Part shown: positions 12,210 to 30,104 of the stretch, piece after piece
Layout of the letters: every line of letters begins with the position of its first letter
How positions within the stretch are numbered: the stretch's first letter is position 1
From: an uncultured Caryophanales bacterium
Lineage (GTDB): Bacteria; Bacillota_I; Bacilli_A; RF39; UBA660
Assembly (NCBI GenBank): GCA_947564265.1
Contig: CANOBK010000015.1
Location: forward strand, 1-40,558
DNA: 40,558 nt
Direction of reading: 5' to 3'
Notes under the pieces: generated by a model
Told to the model about the DNA's origin: nothing
Databases searched by the model: none
What the model saw: only the letters and a program-made list of their open reading frames with translations
Made by a program: the position numbers and the translations under genes

Positions 12210-13643
12210 ATGATCGAAAGAATTAAAAAAGATACAAATTATGCAGGAGATATTATTTATAAAGAAATTGAAATGCAAGGACAGAGAATTACCCTTGTCT
12301 ATTCTGAAGTATTAGCGAGTGGTGGAGATATCAGTAATGTCATTTTAAAAAATATTTCGAAAATTATCGATGAAAAGATAGAACTCCCAAAGGACCTCTT
12401 CCTCTTTTTTTATAATTCAATCCCGAGTCACAATGTAACACAAATCAAAGATTATACAGATCTTTTGAACAAACTTTGGAATGGTTACACAATTTTTATT
12501 ATTGATGATAACAACTATTTTGGAATTGAAACTAGAGCAAACCTAGATCGTGGAATTACAAGTAGTGAAAATGAAATTTCCGTTCGCGGACCCAAAGATT
12601 CTTTGACAGAAAACTTTAATAAGAACTTAGGACTTATTCGAAAAAGAATTAAGACAGAAAAATTATGGGTAGAATCGGTCGAGATTGGAAAACAGTCGAA
12701 AACAAAGGTTGGTATTTTATATATGGAAAATATCGCAGAACTTTCTTTAATTCAAGAAATTAAAGAAAAACTACAAAAAATTAATATTGATGGTATTTTA
12801 GATTGTGCTTATTTAAAAGACTACTTACACGAGGAATCAACCATTTTCCCAACAATTTTGACAACAGAAAAACCAGATTTAGCATCGATGGCTCTTTTAG
12901 AGGGAAAGATTGTCATTTTATGTGATAATAGTCCTTATTCGTTAATCCTACCCTGTTTCTTTATTGATTTATTTCATACACCAGATGATTACTATCAAAA
13001 GCCAATTAATATTTCTTTTATTCGAATCATTCGCCTATTGGCATTCTTGATTTCTATTTTGATTCCTGCCTACTATATTGCGATTACAACTCACAACCAC
13101 GATGCGATTACTACTGATTTGTTACTGAATTTTCTCTCGCAAAGACTAACCGTTCCTTTTCCCGCATTAGTAGAGGCACTCCTCATGACTGTTTCCTTTG
13201 AAATTTTAAGAGAAAGTGATATGAGAATGGCATCTACAATGGGAACTGCCGTCTCGATTCTTGGAGGTTTAGTTTTAGGAGATGCAGCAGTCAGTGCGGG
13301 AATTATTTCTCCCATCATGATCATCGTCATCGCTGTTTCTGCGATTTCAGGACTTGTGTTTACTTCCATTGAACTTTCTTCTGCCATTAGATATTTTAGA
13401 ATCTTACTGATGATTCTAGCTTCTCTCTTTGGAATTTATGGTATTTTTCTAGGATCTTTATTTCTAATTATTAAACTTTCTAGTATGCATTCTTTCCATA
13501 AACCCTATCTCGCCCCTTTCTCTCCTCTCATCTTATCTGAACAAGAAGATGCCTTTATTAGAATTAACAACGTTAAGAAAACGAAACTGAGAAATCCTCT
13601 ATTAACCAAAAAGAATCGAGTACGTGGGAGGTCATCCAAATGA
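12210..13643 (+). CDS. gerAA: Germinant receptor subunit A (GerAA/GerKA family)
   Basis: The product is a 477-residue subunit A of a spore inner-membrane germinant receptor. The soluble N-terminal half runs to about residue 240. Several membrane segments follow, including the family-typical PFPALVEALLMTVSFEILRE near residue 312 and GTAVSILGGLVLGDAAV near 347. The length is normal. AAGGGA precedes the ATG, and a sigma-G-like promoter lies upstream. The gene is the first of a three-gene operon with 4-base ATGA overlaps, in the order A-C-B. Together with GerAC and GerAB it should sense nutrients and trigger spore germination; the germinant cannot be read from the sequence. Confidence 0.95.
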   Translation: MIERIKKDTNYAGDIIYKEIEMQGQRITLVYSEVLASGGDISNVILKNISKIIDEKIELPKDLFLFFYNSIPSHNVTQIKDYTDLLNKLWNGYTIFIIDDNNYFGIETRANLDRGITSSENEISVRGPKDSLTENFNKNLGLIRKRIKTEKLWVESVEIGKQSKTKVGILYMENIAELSLIQEIKEKLQKINIDGILDCAYLKDYLHEESTIFPTILTTEKPDLASMALLEGKIVILCDNSPYSLILPCFFIDLFHTPDDYYQKPINISFIRIIRLLAFLISILIPAYYIAITTHNHDAITTDLLLNFLSQRLTVPFPALVEALLMTVSFEILRESDMRMASTMGTAVSILGGLVLGDAAVSAGIISPIMIIVIAVSAISGLVFTSIELSSAIRYFRILLMILASLFGIYGIFLGSLFLIIKLSSMHSFHKPYLAPFSPLILSEQEDAFIRINNVKKTKLRNPLLTKKNRVRGRSSK

Positions 13644-14626
13644 AAAAACTAAAAATACTTTTTCTTTTTCTGCCCCTTTTCCTTCTAACAGGATGTTCTT
13701 CCTATACAGAGTTAAATGAACTAGGGGTCGTTAGTTTATTAGGAATCGATTATCAAGATCAAACATATCATTTATATATTAGTATCGTAGAGGGAGAACA
13801 AAAGGATGGAACGTTTGAGAAAGGATCTTTCTACTATGAGTCTGAGGCAGAAACACTCGATCAAGCTTTCCATCATCTCTATTTAAAAAGTAATAAAAAA
13901 ATCTATTTTTCCCATATGGATACCCTTCTTTTAACAGATGATGCCATTAATAATAAATTAAAAGAAATTATTACTTATCTTCTAAATCAACGAGATGTTC
14001 GTAATAACTTTGAAATAATTGAACTAGAGTCAGAAATGAATACTATTTTTGAAAAAGAAATAGAATCAAAAGATTTAAATGACTTAATTAAAACCAATCA
14101 ACAATATATGGGAACTACTAGATCCATTACATTTGAACAATTCTTAGAAGAACTCTTAATTGATCAAAATACTTATCTACCACTCGTCTCCTATCAAAAA
14201 GAATTAGAAATTCAAGGTCTTTCTTTAATTCAAGATTTTAAAGTGTTAGATACCCTCTCTTCAGAAGATACCATTCTCTTTAATATTCTAAACAATCAAA
14301 TTCAACAAACAATTTATCAAGATACAACCATTTATAAAAGTCAAACGAATTTAGAATACCAAAAAGATCAAATTACTTTTCATATTTCAATGGAAGTAAA
14401 CAATCAAGACCAGACTACCAAAAAAAATTTAGAACAAGATTTAAAACGATTATTAATTTATTATCAGAACCAAGAATACGATCTTATGAAACTCACTTAT
14501 CGCATGAAACAGAATCATTTATTTTCTTTTAAGGATCAAGATATTCTTTTAGATAAACTGAAATTAAAATTTGAAGTACGTATGAAAACAGTAGATAATT
14601 ATTTAGAAAGGGAGTTATCCTCATGA
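13640..14626 (+). CDS. gerAC: Germinant receptor lipoprotein subunit C (GerAC/GerKC family)
   Basis: This 328-residue lipoprotein begins with a signal peptide and the lipobox LLTGC (cysteine at residue 19). ELNELGVVSLLGIDY follows, the standard N-terminal signature of Ger(x)C proteins. The rest is the family's three-domain extracytoplasmic body, somewhat shorter than Bacillus examples of about 370-400 residues. It would be anchored to the outer face of the spore inner membrane. The ATG overlaps the gerAA stop (ATGA), and the end overlaps gerAB in the same way, so all three are translationally coupled. Confidence 0.93.
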   Translation: MKKLKILFLFLPLFLLTGCSSYTELNELGVVSLLGIDYQDQTYHLYISIVEGEQKDGTFEKGSFYYESEAETLDQAFHHLYLKSNKKIYFSHMDTLLLTDDAINNKLKEIITYLLNQRDVRNNFEIIELESEMNTIFEKEIESKDLNDLIKTNQQYMGTTRSITFEQFLEELLIDQNTYLPLVSYQKELEIQGLSLIQDFKVLDTLSSEDTILFNILNNQIQQTIYQDTTIYKSQTNLEYQKDQITFHISMEVNNQDQTTKKNLEQDLKRLLIYYQNQEYDLMKLTYRMKQNHLFSFKDQDILLDKLKLKFEVRMKTVDNYLERELSS

Positions 14627-15696
14627 AAAAAAATAAAATTACAAGATTTCAGTATTTTACAGTTTTCTTCTTTTTATTAAATGCTTTTATCCCAACCATC
14701 GGTTTTCATAAATTAACGATGATTAGTAAGCAAGATGCCCTATTTTCTATTCTTCTAGGGGGAGGATTCATGGTTCTTTTTGTACTTTTAATAAAAAATA
14801 TTCCTACCTATTTACCGAATAAGACCCTATTTCAAAAGATTAAATTTCTCTTCCCAAAAAGTTTTTTTATTTATTTTTTCCTTTTCTTTGTTATTCTTAC
14901 AAGCCTTTTGTTTTGGTTAACACAAGAATTTTCTGGATTTGTTCACTTCTACTTACTCCCACAACTAGAAAGTTTTTGGATTGTACTTCCGTTTTTCTTA
15001 CTTCTTTTTTATATTTTAAAGAAACCAAGCGAGACCCTATTTCGTACTTCTGAAATTTGTTTTTACTTTTATATTCTATTTTTCATTATCTCTGTTTTAG
15101 GAATTCTACCACAATCTAATTTTTTAAAGATTAAACCACTCCTCTCTTCGGGAATCCGTCCTATTTTAGAAAGTTCTCTTTTCTTTTTCTTCTCTCTCCC
15201 ACTCCCTTTTTTCCTACTTCTATATTTTCCTAGGAACACACTAAAAAGGAAACAAGAAATGACAAAGACTTGGATAAGGACTATTTTTTGGAGTAGTATG
15301 TTCCTATTTGTTACACTATTCTTAATTCTAAGTTCTATTGGAATTCATCTTGCGAATCTCTATAAAAATCCACTGATGGTTACTTACCAGAAAATATCAT
15401 TTTTAAATATCTTAGAGCGGGTAGAAACGACATTATCTTTTTCTTATATTCTCCTCTATTTTTTCCCAATTACTTTTTTAATTTATCTTTTAAAAGAATT
15501 AGTTCTTGAAATTTTTCCTCATCACAAAAAAAGAGAGAGCTTAATTCTCTCTCTCATTCTCATATTTGTTCTATTGGGAAATCAATTTTTTTCTTTTCGA
15601 TTTGATATTTATATTATCTTAAATCTTTTTCTATTTTTCTTTTTATTGTTTCTATCTACCAGTATCTATTGGAAAAAGGAATCATCTAATACATGA
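14623..15696 (+). CDS. gerAB: Germinant receptor permease-like subunit B (GerAB/GerKB family)
   Basis: This 357-residue membrane protein has about ten hydrophobic segments and belongs to the amino-acid-permease-like spore germination subunit family (APC fold). The N-terminal ITRFQYFTVFF and the extreme Phe/Leu richness fit GerAB proteins, and the length is normal. Subunit B is held to carry the germinant-binding pocket. The ATG overlaps the gerAC stop by four bases. No clear terminator is visible in the 30 bases before the convergent gene at 15727. Confidence 0.92.
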   Translation: MKKNKITRFQYFTVFFFLLNAFIPTIGFHKLTMISKQDALFSILLGGGFMVLFVLLIKNIPTYLPNKTLFQKIKFLFPKSFFIYFFLFFVILTSLLFWLTQEFSGFVHFYLLPQLESFWIVLPFFLLLFYILKKPSETLFRTSEICFYFYILFFIISVLGILPQSNFLKIKPLLSSGIRPILESSLFFFFSLPLPFFLLLYFPRNTLKRKQEMTKTWIRTIFWSSMFLFVTLFLILSSIGIHLANLYKNPLMVTYQKISFLNILERVETTLSFSYILLYFFPITFLIYLLKELVLEIFPHHKKRESLILSLILIFVLLGNQFFSFRFDIYIILNLFLFFFLLFLSTSIYWKKESSNT

Positions 15697-27016: not shown

Positions 27017-27448
27017 TTATGATTGTACTCGTTTCTTTGTTTTCGATTTTGACATATAAGTAGCTGATACCATCAACATCCCAAAAGTTCCAAATAAAAA
27101 TACAAAATAAACTATAGCAACAGGTGAAGTTGATTTAATACCTTCAACGTTTGCATACAGTTTTCCATTAGATAGCAGAGCTTTTACACTTTTTCCCTTA
27201 TAGTATCCAGAAAGTCCATGAACATTTTGTAAATTATACTCTTCTCCCTCATATCTTACTTTAACTTCATAAAAAGTAGTCCTAGAACCAGTTTTCTTAT
27301 TTACAACAGATTTACTAGAAGTATTTGTAACAATTGCTGTAACTTCTTCATAATGAACATCCACATTATTCATTAAAAACCAAAAAACAATTGTCAAAAT
27401 CAAACAAATTCCCGTAATAATCCATAGAACTGCAGTTTTATTTTTCAT
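27017..27448 (-). CDS. DUF3592-like two-span membrane protein
   Basis: The 143-residue protein has a membrane segment at about 8-26, an extracytoplasmic beta-rich domain (about 33-105) with TSSKSVVNKKTGSRTTFYEV and YEGEEYNL, and a second membrane segment near 110-132. This hairpin layout, with a VTAIVTNTS-type first strand, fits DUF3592 proteins, whose function is unknown. A weak AAAGGAT-type ribosome site precedes the ATG. Upstream lies the most decayed copy of the intergenic module that separates the genes in this stretch. Confidence 0.65.
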   Translation of the reverse strand: MKNKTAVLWIITGICLILTIVFWFLMNNVDVHYEEVTAIVTNTSSKSVVNKKTGSRTTFYEVKVRYEGEEYNLQNVHGLSGYYKGKSVKALLSNGKLYANVEGIKSTSPVAIVYFVFLFGTFGMLMVSATYMSKSKTKKRVQS

Positions 27449-27488
27449 ATACCCATCCTTTCTAAAATGTATATTATCTTACTTACAA

Positions 27489-27606
27489 CAATATACAAGT
27501 AATTTCTAAATTAATAAAATTAAATTTACATAAATTATAACAATTTTATCATATTAAAAATCGAAAATAAAAGTTCAAATTTCCTATCAATTTGATGTCC
27601 TAAGGA
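27489..27606 (-). repeat. Intergenic module copy B (most decayed)
   Basis: On the minus strand this contains a decayed tRNA 3'-end-like piece (TTAGGACATCA), then AATTGATAGGAAATT, a weakened hairpin derived from CTCGAAC/GTTCGAG, and an AT-rich leader with TACTTGTATA-like sequence. It aligns along its whole length with copies C (28208-28344) and D (29069-29183). It starts within about 20 bases after the NUDIX stop codon and runs up to the leader of the DUF3592-like gene. Confidence 0.65.
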
Positions 27607-27623
27607 AAGGACGTACAACAACT

Positions 27624-28172
27624 TTAAAATCTAAATAAGAAATTTGTTAAAACTTGATAAATTTCAGATCGCTCAACAAGTTCTTTTTTTTCTATCATTT
27701 TTTGTATTGTTGATAAATCTACAAATTTTACAGCTTGTACTTCTTCCTTTTGGAAATATAAAGTTTTATCATCAACACCTGATGTTCTTAAAATAAAGAA
27801 ATCATAAAATTGTCTTTCGATAAAATCTTCCCTAAATTTTTGTTCTTTTCTAAAACAATACATATATCTAAAATCTTTTATTTCAGTTCTATATCCAAGT
27901 AAAACGCTTACTTCTTCATTTATTTCACGTGCTGCAGCTGATAAAGAATCCTGCCCTGCAGAGATATGCCCTGCAACAGAAATATCCCACATTCCAGCAT
28001 TTTTTTCTTTCTTTTCACTCCTTTGTTGTAATAATATTTCGTTTTTTTCATTTATAATCGCAACTACGATTGCCCTATGCCACAGTCCTCTTTTATGGAC
28101 TTCGCTTCTTGGTAAAACTTCCCCTGTTAGTACTCCATCTTCATTAAGTACATCAATTAATTCAGTAGCCAT
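27624..28172 (-). CDS. NUDIX hydrolase, YfcD/IPP-isomerase-like
   Basis: This 182-residue protein has the layout of YfcD-type NUDIX enzymes: N-terminal ELIDVLNEDG, RGLWHRAI near residue 28, LLQQRS near 48 and the box GHISAGQ...AAAREINEEVSV near 67-89. Two box positions are altered: the first glutamate is Gln and the final glycine is Ser. The REXXEE metal core is intact. These proteins hydrolyse nucleotide-type pyrophosphates or are uncharacterised. GGGAGG precedes the ATG. It is flanked on both sides by copies of the intergenic module and has its own TTGTCA promoter in copy C. Confidence 0.85.
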   Translation of the reverse strand: MATELIDVLNEDGVLTGEVLPRSEVHKRGLWHRAIVVAIINEKNEILLQQRSEKKEKNAGMWDISVAGHISAGQDSLSAAAREINEEVSVLLGYRTEIKDFRYMYCFRKEQKFREDFIERQFYDFFILRTSGVDDKTLYFQKEEVQAVKFVDLSTIQKMIEKKELVERSEIYQVLTNFLFRF

Positions 28173-28207
28173 ATTTATTCCTCCCTTATTTATATATATT
28201 GTTTATG

Positions 28208-28344
28208 ACGGTATACAAGTGTGTTATGAAATTGACAAAATCAATTTCATTTATATAGATTATATTATCATATATTAGGTAAAATGAAAACTCGAATCAT
28301 AAAAGTTCGAGCTTGGTATCAATCTGGTGCCCTAAGGGGGACTT
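28208..28344 (-). repeat. Intergenic module copy C with tRNA 3'-end remnant and promoter
   Basis: The minus strand begins with AGTCCCCCTTAGGGCACCA (28325-28343), directly after the RibD-like stop codon. This reads as the end of a T-loop, a T-stem (CCCCC), a seven-base acceptor strand (TTAGGGC), discriminator A and CCA. GATTGATACC, the hairpin CTCGAAC/TTCGAG and a leader with TTGTCA, 17 bases, TATACC follow; this pair is the likely promoter of the NUDIX gene. No upstream part of the tRNA is present. It aligns with copies B and D. Confidence 0.75.
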
Positions 28345-29039
28345 TATTTTATAACCTGATATTTTAATTGAATATATGAATTTTCTAACTTTGTACATTC
28401 GATTAATTTCAATGCTTTTAATTTATTAAGTTCTCTAGCAGACATTATCGATTCTCCATCTATAAGAGTTGATGTTTCTTTGCCACCTACCAATAATGGA
28501 GCAATCACCACATTTACATAATCGATTAAGTTTTCCCTTAAAAATTTTCCATTTAGTGTTCCGCCAGACTGAATAGTAATAGCTTCTGCATCATATTTTT
28601 TTCTCATATCGATTAGCAAAGCATTTAGATCTAAATCATTATAAAATAATATATCAAGATTTTTATACTTCTCTTGCAATGAATACGCAACATGATTTTT
28701 ATTAGTCGTCACAAGTATAAGTTTATCAACCCAATGACATATATAATCTATACCTTTTTCATTTAAATGCGGTTTATTATCTATAATAATAAACCTGCAA
28801 TCTACTTTATCATGATATTCAGTTCTCTCATTAACTCCAATTTTTGCCATCACTCTACCAGTATTTAGTGAATAAAAGTCTGTAGTTGCTTCAATTTCAT
28901 AATATTGATGCAGTCCTTCTTTAACGCCATCTATTTGACACCAGTCCTTATCTGCATCCAGGTTGTCGTTATTTCCACTACTAATTTTCCCATCTAAAGA
29001 TTCCAACATAAATAATGTTGTTATAGGTTTGTCCTTCAT
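28344..29039 (-). CDS. RibD C-terminal/dihydrofolate-reductase-like protein
   Basis: This 231-residue protein resembles the RibD C-terminal reductase family. It has an N-terminal FMLESLDGKISSG near residue 11, the conserved QSGGTLNGKFLRENLID near 157-173, and PLLVGGKETSTLI near 182. The GG motif binds NADPH in this fold. No other riboflavin gene is nearby and the deaminase half is absent, so it is a stand-alone reductase of unknown substrate. GGAGGTACTT precedes the ATG. It lies between intergenic module copies C and D, directly downstream of tRNA-Leu. Confidence 0.85.
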   Translation of the reverse strand: MKDKPITTLFMLESLDGKISSGNNDNLDADKDWCQIDGVKEGLHQYYEIEATTDFYSLNTGRVMAKIGVNERTEYHDKVDCRFIIIDNKPHLNEKGIDYICHWVDKLILVTTNKNHVAYSLQEKYKNLDILFYNDLDLNALLIDMRKKYDAEAITIQSGGTLNGKFLRENLIDYVNVVIAPLLVGGKETSTLIDGESIMSARELNKLKALKLIECTKLENSYIQLKYQVIK

Positions 29040-29068
29040 AAGTACCTCCTAAACTCACTTATTGATTG

Positions 29069-29183
29069 TGTCAATGCACAAGTGTTTTTTAATTGACAAA
29101 ATTCAATTTAAATCTATAAAAATTATAACATAATTTTAGCCATATTAAAACTCGACCTTAAAAGTTCGAGTTTCCTATCAATC
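29069..29183 (-). repeat. Intergenic module copy D behind tRNA-Leu
   Basis: Directly after the tRNA-Leu CCA end, the minus strand reads GATTGATAGGAAACTCGAAC and closes a hairpin with GTCGAG plus TTTT; this is the tRNA terminator (about 29147-29173). An AT-rich leader follows with TTGAATTTTGTCAATT and AACACTTG, matching copy C base for base in long stretches. It ends at the leader of the RibD-like gene. Confidence 0.75.
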
Positions 29184-29269
29184 TGGTGCGAGAAAAGGGA
29201 CTTGAACCCTCACAGTACAAAACTACTAGCGCCTGAAGCTAGCGCGTCTACCAATTCCGCCATCCTCGC
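29184..29269 (-). tRNA. tRNA-Leu (CAG anticodon)
   Basis: The 86-base minus-strand sequence folds as a class II tRNA. The acceptor GCGAGGA pairs with TTCTCGC, the anticodon stem CTAGC/GCTAG carries loop TTCAGGC (anticodon CAG), a long variable arm follows, and the T-arm is GAGGG-TTCAAGT-CCCTT (TTC loop). The CCA is encoded. It has its own promoter (29281-29309) and terminator hairpin. It is not part of a tRNA cluster. Confidence 0.95.
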
Positions 29270-29280
29270 ATAACAGTATT

Positions 29281-29309
29281 AATATAACATAGACTTTAAT
29301 TTTTTACAA
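29281..29309 (-). promoter_or_regulatory. Promoter of tRNA-Leu
   Basis: TTGTAA (29304-29309), 17 bases, then TATATT (29281-29286) on the minus strand, 11 bases before the tRNA 5' end. Confidence 0.7.
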
Positions 29310-29375
29310 TTGTACAGATACAAACAAAAAGTTCAAACATTAATCAAGTATTTAAAGGAAAATATATAACCACTT

Positions 29376-29929
29376 TTATGGTTTTATATTCCTTTTATAT
29401 TTTTCAATTTTCCTGATATATTTATCGAAATCAATACTTGATACCCTGTTAATAAATTGATCAATCCTTTCTTTCGATAAAATACAATCTACGTAAGGAC
29501 TTCCTGGATAATGTTCACTAGGATAAGCTTTATAATCATTTTCTGTAATGTTATATTTTTCAGATACATAAAGATTTAAATGAGCATACGCAAAATATAA
29601 ATCCTTACAAAAATCTTCATAACTATTACTTAATAAATACTCTCTTGTAAAACATTCTTCAAAAAAGAGATAATCTGTCACTAGATGCAAAAACCAACCA
29701 AACTCAAAATCATCTAAACCCCATGCTCTTTTAAGAAAGAATATAGATTTACTTTACCACGTAGATGACTTACATTATCACTACCACGATTCCTATCAGT
29801 ATAGTGTGATTCATCTTTTTTAACTGTATCTGGATAAAGTGTACCAGCAATTACCTTTTCATAATTCCAATCTCTATGATTTTCTAAATATCGTTTAACA
29901 ATTGCTAGATGAATTGCTGCACAAGCCAT
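29376..29929 (-). pseudogene. Zinc-dependent phospholipase-C-like/HD-like hydrolase gene broken by one frameshift
   Basis: Two frames join into one protein of about 184 residues. The first (29714-29929) starts MACAAIHLAIVKRYLEN with AGAGGTGAT upstream, and has GTLYPD and DESHYTD. After FLKEHG it meets a stop at 29714. The second frame (to 29376) continues upstream of its nominal start as DDFEFGWFLHLVTDYLFF. The break lies in a run of four G at about 29716-29719; one added G restores the frame exactly. Histidine/aspartate motifs (AIHLAI, YPD, SHY, HLVTDYLF) fit bacterial zinc-phospholipase-C-like proteins. It is either a real pseudogene or a homopolymer sequencing error. It lies between tRNA-Arg and tRNA-Leu. 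Confidence 0.72.
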
Positions 29930-29954
29930 AAATATCACCTCTTTCTAATTGATA

Positions 29955-30029
29955 CTGACAACTTTCAATTTAAATATTTTAAAACTCGAACCATAGAAAA
30001 AGTCTAAAAGTTCGAGTTATCATTTAATC
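29955..30029 (-). repeat. Intergenic module copy E behind tRNA-Arg
   Basis: After the tRNA-Arg CCA end, the minus strand reads GATTAAATGATAACTCGAAC, a 17-base loop and GTTCGAG plus TTTT (terminator, about 29984-30017). A shorter AT-rich leader with TTTAAATTGAAAGTTGTCAG follows. It matches copies C and D at the hairpin and at the TTGTCA part, but less along the full length. Confidence 0.6.
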
Positions 30030-30104
30030 TGGTGTCCCCGGTAGGAATCGAACCTACATTTGATCCTTAGGAGGGACCTACACTATCCATTATGTTACGA
30101 GGAC
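30030..30104 (-). tRNA. tRNA-Arg (CCU anticodon)
   Basis: The 75-base minus-strand tRNA has acceptor GTCCTCG paired with CGGGGAC. The anticodon loop CTCCTAA in stem GGTCC/GGATC gives anticodon CCU. The T-arm is GTAGG-TTCGATT-CCTAC and the CCA is encoded. tRNA-Arg(CCU) genes are frequent targets of tyrosine-recombinase elements in other bacteria. No integrase is seen here. Confidence 0.95.

Follow-up and report, generated by a model that had tools for sequence, protein, structure and literature searches.

A 40,558-nt stretch of DNA (hereafter the window), corresponding to contig C15 (GenBank CANOBK010000015.1) of the 1.68-Mb, 89.6% complete draft genome of an uncultured Caryophanales bacterium of the family UBA660, carries accessory genes separated by four related copies (E, D, C, and B) of a short module in the vicinity of tRNA genes. 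Each unit of this array is probably a small non-autonomous cassette with the attachment ends of large serine recombinases (LSRs), mobilized in trans by co-resident elements that encode an LSR and a MobV-type relaxase; we estimate the probability of this reading at about 0.82. The sequence basis for it comprises end sites shared with LSR elements, a shared site resembling an origin of transfer (oriT), the recurrence of whole cassettes at other tRNAs and in other genera, the scarcity of LSRs within the units, and an empty tRNA-Arg in a sister genome. The first-pass annotation of this DNA had proposed an array of different genes inserted at tRNA 3′ ends and resembling integron cassettes, a description borne out here. 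It had also taken the ends to be tRNA-derived, which did not hold, as the ends match LSR attachment half-sites and the tRNA is the target only. No integrase had been seen; the source genome indeed has no cognate LSR, but the recombinase is present in elements of relatives that have the same ends.

Autonomous elements and their attachment half-sites

A protein of about 89 amino acids (P89), with no corresponding Pfam or NCBIfam family, recurs behind the module and accounts for 16 of 104 first open reading frames (ORFs). An LSR gene followed it in six of the eight such loci inspected (in pieces in L081) and was not present in L073 and L074. The nearest NCBIfam models to the recombinase, XisF and CcrB, were below cut-off. 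The LSR of locus L119 contains PF00239 and PF07508; the relaxase encoded downstream contains PF01076 and reached 108 bits with the NCBIfam MobV model (cut-off 100). The elements start with the right half-site end, often directly behind a tRNA or tmRNA gene, followed by P89, the LSR, and often a MobV-type relaxase. Among 20 further cognate LSR loci, a relaxase was found beside the LSR in 12 and a module directly behind a called tRNA in 11. P89 (L119:6568-6834, minus strand, and relatives) was situated upstream of the LSR in 16 of these 20 loci and in several other LSR subfamilies, and may be a candidate recombination directionality factor. These other subfamilies, 40–50% identical, keep the gene order with a different right half-site and were located directly behind a called tRNA in five loci (Gly, Thr, Thr, Leu, and Leu); L223 bears two such elements in tandem. 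Plasmid records held only LSR relatives below 60% identity. On contig C24 of the source genome, a relaxase fragment 64.5% identical over 214 amino acids to the L119 relaxase was identified.

The end sites of the cassettes also flank the LSR-encoding elements, at left as well as right ends, and the far ends of these elements are the left half-sites that stand between cassettes. The far ends of L216 (source genome), L221, and L226 read GTTGTAGATA...CG followed by C[AT]CCA, and those of L220 and L223 read GTTTGAAATAACT...CG followed by C[AT]CCA. Three element ends are 23-mers identical to cassette junctions, namely L221 (L112 and L267), L226 (L278), and L220 (L172, L262, and L279). Likewise, L214 and L215, which bear the window-type right half-site, end in GTTGTT...GG followed by CACCA, the type found at the junction of window units C and B. 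The far ends of the 20 cognate loci were scanned for six listed types, the C/B-junction type being accepted with 5 or fewer mismatches in 17; hits in L344, on the wrong strand, and in L361, at a distance of 6 kb, were left out of the count. This yielded 12 further ends of the C/B-junction type and one of the GTTTGAAATAACT type (L351), with seven unplaced, mostly on short contigs, and 14 of the 15 placeable right ends of elements with an L119-type LSR were of the C/B-junction type. Judging from these matches, the module is the right half of an LSR attachment site and not an ordinary tRNA terminator, and the central CA would be the crossover.

The oriT-like site

The AT-rich leader behind the module hairpin holds a putative oriT-like hairpin common to the relaxase-bearing elements. 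A block with TTGTCA and ACACTTG, noted earlier in this leader, is part of the motif TTGTCAATTTAG-AAACACACTTGTATATTGTCA...CAATATAC, which was found in 77 of 220 segments downstream of modules (46 at 50–130 nt and 28 at 350–450 nt behind the module), while the reversed motif was found in none. In 14 elements with a complete L119-type relaxase (at least 45% identity) and visible sequence behind the gene, the motif was located 39–57 nt behind the relaxase stop in 11 (L119, L214, L342, L346, L347, L348, L349, L350, L351, L356, and L359) and at the end of one extra ORF behind the relaxase in L225 and L358; it was not found in L345, nor behind the relaxase gene in any of nine elements with other relaxase types. 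Two arms of the motif covary, 40 of 91 own pairs matching at 7/8 or better against a maximum of 33 in 200 swapped sets. On its other strand, the motif reads hairpin-CAAGTGTG-TTTT. The MobV oriT of pMV158 has the inverted repeat IR1 8 nt before the nick TGTG/TTATAC, as described in PMC5863519, a layout that by eye is close to this strand. As in a MobV oriT, the motif stands beside the relaxase gene with a hairpin 8 nt before TGTG/TT, though behind the gene. We infer that it is probably the oriT of the MobV relaxase.

Content and recurrence of the cassettes

The 42 units delimited by consecutive modules, a list that holds window unit C twice (as L001 and as the window), ranged from 544 to 5498 bp with a median of 1420 bp. 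An LSR was absent from 41 and a relaxase from all 42. With the duplicate and the LSR unit left out, same-strand ORFs of at least 75 amino acids were present in 34 of 40 units, 61 in all. These 61 cargo proteins matched 41 Pfam models, none of them in more than two proteins, and the families included NUDIX, GNAT, HD, KilA-N, TatD, SDR, HIT, and glycosyltransferase; a defence-system scan gave scattered matches to 12 models. Unit C and its counterpart in genome G297 keep both attachment ends, lack integration and transfer genes, and lie in tandem with relatives, as expected of cis-mobilizable elements (CIMEs) and other non-autonomous elements; the absence of the LSR from 41 of the 42 module-bounded units agrees with this. 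The serine recombinase of an integrative and mobilizable element (IME) is missing from the window units and from 41 of the 42 units and is present in the autonomous relatives. As for the other IME features, no relaxase is encoded in the units, and a putative oriT-like site is present in D, C, and B.

Window unit C was 90.16% identical over 752 bp to L252 from G297, which belongs to another genus and carries the cassette directly behind tRNA-Thr(cgt); the homology breaks at CACCA on both sides. There were 390 pairs of at least 350 bp starting near a module in both members, many of them LSR elements or shared leaders, from which nine recurring pairs were picked and examined. All nine were situated at different tRNAs or junctions. 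In L023/L086 (82.2% over 1284 bp) CACCA was reached at both ends, and in L090/L276, L230/L267, and L230/L264 the homology ends within about 40 nt before the right CACCA.

The comEA-comEC-HD-tRNA-Arg(cct) neighborhood of the window is common to several relatives. In the sister genome G016, tRNA-Leu(cag) comes 50 bp behind tRNA-Arg, the sequence next to tRNA-Arg is unrelated, and no insert is present, which is consistent with unit E being an insertion. The tRNA-Leu(cag) of G016 bears the right half-site of another LSR subfamily. What lies behind tRNA-Arg in G002 is a module with 6 mismatches and another gene. An 82.7% identical relative of the RibD_C gene in unit D is present in L279, the likeness being confined to the gene, as the leader differs.

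Distribution of the module and its tRNA targets

The module was detected in 199 of 386 genomes of the family at up to 2 mismatches, with no reversed match among the genomes listed. In a class-wide draw it was present in 11 of 198 genomes; by our count of the individual entries, all 11 were among the 25 members of the family, and none of the 173 genomes from elsewhere in the class had it. When named genome contigs were scanned for the exact pattern, at least 117 stretches with the module were returned; the titles among 80 listed stretches refer to uncultured Bacilli, Tenericutes, Bacillales, Erysipelotrichaceae, and similar, and isolate names like Lapin, Goat, and Water deer are frequent among them. 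Viral contigs gave no exact module match.

A set of 220 distinct modules was assembled at up to 5 mismatches, in which diverged modules are under-counted since the loci were found with near-consensus patterns. Their neighbors were a complete tRNA in 110 cases (16 kinds, mainly Thr and Leu), a tmRNA in 15, and neither in 95; tmRNA 3′ ends serve as targets as tRNAs do, for example in L309:6095-6448. Five of the 95 keep a T-loop in the right place and resemble cut or unrecognized tRNA or tmRNA ends. Many others have left flanks in register with CACCA, of the types GTTGTAGATAACTAC...CG, GTTTGAAATAACT...CG, GTTGTTGTAC...CCTTTAGGG, and others, and some fit none. A GTT at −23/−24 occurred in 60 of the 95 non-tRNA flanks (3.8 expected in shuffled flanks). 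Modules at tRNA or tmRNA ends were nearer the consensus (mean 0.27 vs. 0.76 mismatches, n = 125 vs. 95, p = 2.3e-4), both groups being shaped by the 5-mismatch cut and the search pattern. P89 or an LSR was found within 900 nt after 25 of the 220 modules.

The distance from the start of the T-loop sequence GTTCRA to CACCA is 19 nt at 120 of 125 tRNA or tmRNA sites, as the anatomy of a tRNA requires. Read outward, GTTCGA (142) or GTCCGA (63) begins 23 nt from the center in 205 of 220 right half-sites, with a search pattern that favors these letters. GTTCG also begins nine of the ten right half-sites listed for other subfamilies, which do not depend on that pattern; two of these are repeats of others. 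In a published LSR structure the attB zinc-domain motif lies 5 bp nearer the center than in attP, according to PMC3783163. A shift of a few bp between T-loop and half-site motif suggests that the T-loop of the tRNA may be what the LSR reads.

Proposed mechanism and alternative explanations

According to the proposed mechanism, the left end of a unit would be the right half of the attachment site, starting from the CACCA of the tRNA, and its hairpin could replace the tRNA's own terminator. An oriT-like hairpin would follow in many units, then mostly one to three cargo genes, and the right end would be a left half-site, which likewise ends in CACCA. Closed into a circle at CACCA, a cassette would possess a complete attP. 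Catalysis would take place in trans, the LSR of a co-resident autonomous element inserting these circular forms either behind a tRNA or tmRNA gene or into the junction of an earlier cassette, so that cassettes would accumulate at the tRNA. Nicking of the cassette oriT by the relaxase would send the cassette to other cells. More broadly, these arrays could be an equivalent of the integron that is based on serine recombinases: cassettes of one or a few genes, forming a pool across the family and carrying only an attachment site and often an oriT, would be moved in trans within and between cells by LSR/MobV elements and, through T-loop reading, could found an array at nearly any tRNA or tmRNA. 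We consider the chances of this wider picture to be even.

Several observations weigh against the cassette reading. Of the 386 family genomes, 30 were found to have the cognate LSR at E ≤ 1e-170, no more than three candidates having been scored for any of the genomes listed, and the three LSRs of the source genome are 35–43% identical and none is cognate. The module was present in 25 of the 30 LSR genomes and in 174 of the 356 others (p = 2.3e-4), an association confounded because the LSR element itself brings a module. Locus L278, with the left end of the window type and a 320-aa LSR ORF, ends in the GTTGTAGATA type, another half-site type. The half-sites extend 21–24 nt around CA with a weak symmetry that is best at the expected offset yet was reached by 76 of 5000 shuffles, and 14 element pairs gave no clear excess of symmetry. 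In four of the recurring pairs, the homology begins at the module and breaks off within the unit (L049/L114, 92.9%; L143/L170, 91.7%; L183/L253, 94.4%; L097/L099, 93.4%). The oriT-like motif was present in 76 of 195 modules not followed by P89 or an LSR, most of which miss the cut; its second arm pair (arm a-b) showed no covariation above swapped controls, and in unit C its hairpin folds no better than shuffles, so the window array may no longer be mobile. For tandem arrays to form, attP has to recombine with a junction or with attL, a reaction that is poor in the serine integrases studied, as reported in PMC3783163. Finally, no recombination, excision, or transfer event was seen in the sequences analyzed.

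Some of these points would suit dead remnants, that is, LSR elements at tRNAs that lost recombinase and relaxase by deletion and of which none moves by itself, as in CIMEs. The window copies are decayed, the cognate LSR is missing from the source genome, and accretion of CIMEs is a described route (PMC5704250). However, the LSR-less units recur at 82–94% identity at different tRNAs or junctions, with both boundaries at CACCA in two of the nine pairs and an end no more than about 40 nt from the right junction in three; units without LSR nevertheless have a module at each end in 41 of 42 cases, the cargo differs almost every time, and modules occur in 199 genomes as opposed to 30 with the LSR. 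Decay into remnants is an unlikely account of the units. Far less credible still is an origin of the modules as plain tRNA terminators that recombination between tRNA loci has duplicated, in which case the genes between them would be ordinary neighbors. The hairpin of the module is terminator-like and often lies behind tRNA genes, but a terminator-pattern search did not flag the modules, 95 of 220 are not behind a recognized tRNA or tmRNA (five look like cut ends), the sequence behind the same tRNA-Arg in G016 is unrelated, the same ends flank LSR elements, and the boundary-precise recurrence of cassettes makes this explanation hard to keep. The first-pass annotation had named ordinary terminators without gene turnover as the outcome that would speak against an array; instead, the source genome has modules without a tRNA, and cassettes recur at different tRNAs.

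A separate question concerns the hairpin behind the relaxase gene, which cassettes might have taken along as a transcription-control or recombination-enhancer site. Its position a short distance upstream of the cargo in many cassettes (by eye) and behind, not before, the relaxase gene in the autonomous elements would agree with such a role. On the other hand, the motif goes with one relaxase type, being found in 13 of 14 elements that have an L119-type relaxase (two via one extra ORF) and in 0 of 9 with other types, and its complement, hairpin-CAAGTGTG-TTTT, resembles the pMV158 oriT as given in PMC5863519. We consider the control-site explanation doubtful, although less so than that of dead remnants, and an oriT function remains our preferred interpretation of the hairpin.

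Comparison with known systems

The related LSRs described here have many different tRNAs as targets. Their attachment sites delimit what appears to be a second gene-capture system of the integron type, present in 199 of the 386 genomes sampled from a single family of uncultured gut bacteria. Such a system would explain how single genes can spread although no mobility gene travels with them, and it makes recombinase, attP, tRNA attB, relaxase, and oriT available as pairs for testing; the LSRs may also be useful because their targets are nearly universal. In integrons, the cassette genes are very diverse, mostly point the same way, and lie between common recombination sites next to a single anchor site; the arrays described here are alike in these respects. 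In contrast, their ends are of the serine- rather than the tyrosine-recombinase type, the target is a tRNA or tmRNA 3′ end instead of attI, the recombinase is not beside the array, and there are several arrays per genome. A tyrosine-recombinase or integron system was dropped as a candidate upon finding the LSR elements, and the integron integrase IntI (TIGR02249) was over cut-off in none of 59 genomes, source genome included. Matches below cut-off were found in 58 of the 59 and also in all 14 control genomes, and were therefore taken as generic tyrosine recombinases.

The staphylococcal cassette chromosome (SCC) relies on Ccr recombinases at rlmH, inserts at the 3′ end of a gene, forms tandem arrays, and has some members without recombinase. 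The cassettes resemble SCC in the LSR-type recombinase, 3′-end insertion, tandem arrays, and recombinase-less members, and differ in their many tRNA targets plus tmRNA, unit sizes of 0.5–5.5 kb, and the MobV-type relaxase and oriT-like site of their relatives. Tycheposons are larger tRNA-end elements with variable cargo and tyrosine recombinases, many of them without a recombinase; compared by description only, they are alike in tRNA ends and variable cargo and unlike in recombinase type and size. The ssrA islands of Dehalococcoides use a CcrB-like serine recombinase at the tmRNA 3′ end and form tandem islands bounded by target-end repeats, and 15 islands without an integration module might be cis-mobilizable (PMC3146451). 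The serine recombinase, tmRNA target, tandem units, and recombinase-less members are thus shared with the present arrays; the islands differ in having one target gene and multi-gene content, and the consulted portion of PMC3146451 describes neither single-gene cassettes nor a relaxase/oriT link. CIMEs keep attL and attR, lack integration and transfer genes, and lie in tandem with relatives, as outlined in PMC5704250 for the accretion of integrative and conjugative elements and IMEs. The units share these features, whereas here defective members outnumber autonomous ones in the sample, many have an oriT-like site, and the cargo is nearly always different from unit to unit. No description of such LSR cassettes was found in the portions of the open-access literature that were consulted.

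Organization of the window array

In the window, CACCAGATTGATANNAAACTCGAAC was matched by two modules at up to 3 mismatches, with an expectation of 0.00 (100 shuffles). With copy D as the query against the whole source genome, copies B (E = 6.7e-16) and C (4.3e-15) were recovered, copy E only at 0.025, and further copies were matched on other contigs. The genome has ten module copies at up to 3 mismatches and none of the reversed pattern; they are situated behind tRNA-Leu(tag), tRNA-Arg(ccg), tRNA-Thr(cgt), and tRNA-Leu(cag), and others are without any tRNA found.

All four window copies lie on the minus strand where the first-pass annotation had placed them, as do the features that follow. 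The tRNA-Arg(cct) at 30030..30104 (tRNA call) is the target site of unit E, whose module (CACCA plus right half-site, 5 mismatches) spans 30010..30034. Its cargo appears to be an interrupted gene in two ORFs, an upstream piece at 29714..29938 and a downstream piece at 29376..29690, neither with a Pfam match, which modifies the earlier account of one accessory gene per copy. Unit D starts at tRNA-Leu(cag) (29184..29269, tRNA call) with a module at 29164..29188, where CACCA and a right half-site of exact consensus are followed by the hairpin; next come an oriT-like core (29069..29088, 4 mismatches) and a RibD_C-domain protein (28344..29039; PF01872, E = 4.1e-16). Before the CACCA of module C, ...CCCCCTTAGGG at 28330..28355 could, by eye, be the right end of unit D; this flank, previously considered a tRNA 3′ end, may be a worn version of a left half-site. 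Unit C is composed of a module (28305..28329, CACCA plus right half-site, 3 mismatches), an oriT-like core (28206..28225, 2 mismatches), a NUDIX-domain protein identified with Pfam (27624..28172) whose top NCBIfam model, isopentenyl-diphosphate isomerase, was below cut-off, and, as its right end, the left half-site GTTGTTGTACGTCC..CCTTAGGA at 27598..27622, of the type that ends LSR elements L214, L215, and 12 more. Unit B has a module at 27573..27597 (CATCA plus right half-site, 4 mismatches), an oriT-like core at 27486..27505 (5 mismatches), and a gene for a 143-aa protein without Pfam or NCBIfam family (27017..27448). Its module is preceded by the half-site GTTGTTGTACGTCCTTTCCTTAGGA followed by CATCA, of a type that ends LSR elements, and not by the tRNA 3′ end assigned to it before. 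For units E and B, no right end was found above chance.

Of the leader attributed to all four copies, the TTGTCA/ACACTTG motif was confirmed in D, C, and B (up to 6 mismatches) and was not found in E. Decay with distance from the working tRNAs likewise applies in the order D, C, B, as the module hairpin folds far better than shuffles in D (z −4.3), moderately better in C (−2.6), and no better in B (−0.8), but not to E, which is diverged despite its complete tRNA. Promoter-like sites showed no excess over shuffles.

A few side observations were also recorded. In another sister genome, G008, an integrase-like ORF (by eye) lies behind the same tRNA-Arg(cct) at L303:5338-6369, so unrelated elements may also use this tRNA as a hotspot. 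Forty-one of the 220 modules head a cassette class with a common leader of about 400 nt before unrelated genes (the first ~430 nt in L022, L027, L086, L091, L123, and others), for which Rfam matched tRNAs only in the five loci searched. Close behind the module hairpin, an IS200-like transposase gene (L096:2230 onward) and an intron-like sequence (L144:607 onward) were seen by eye. Elsewhere in the window, three consecutive ORFs at 12210-15696 (plus strand) resemble, by eye from their translations, a spore-germination receptor operon.

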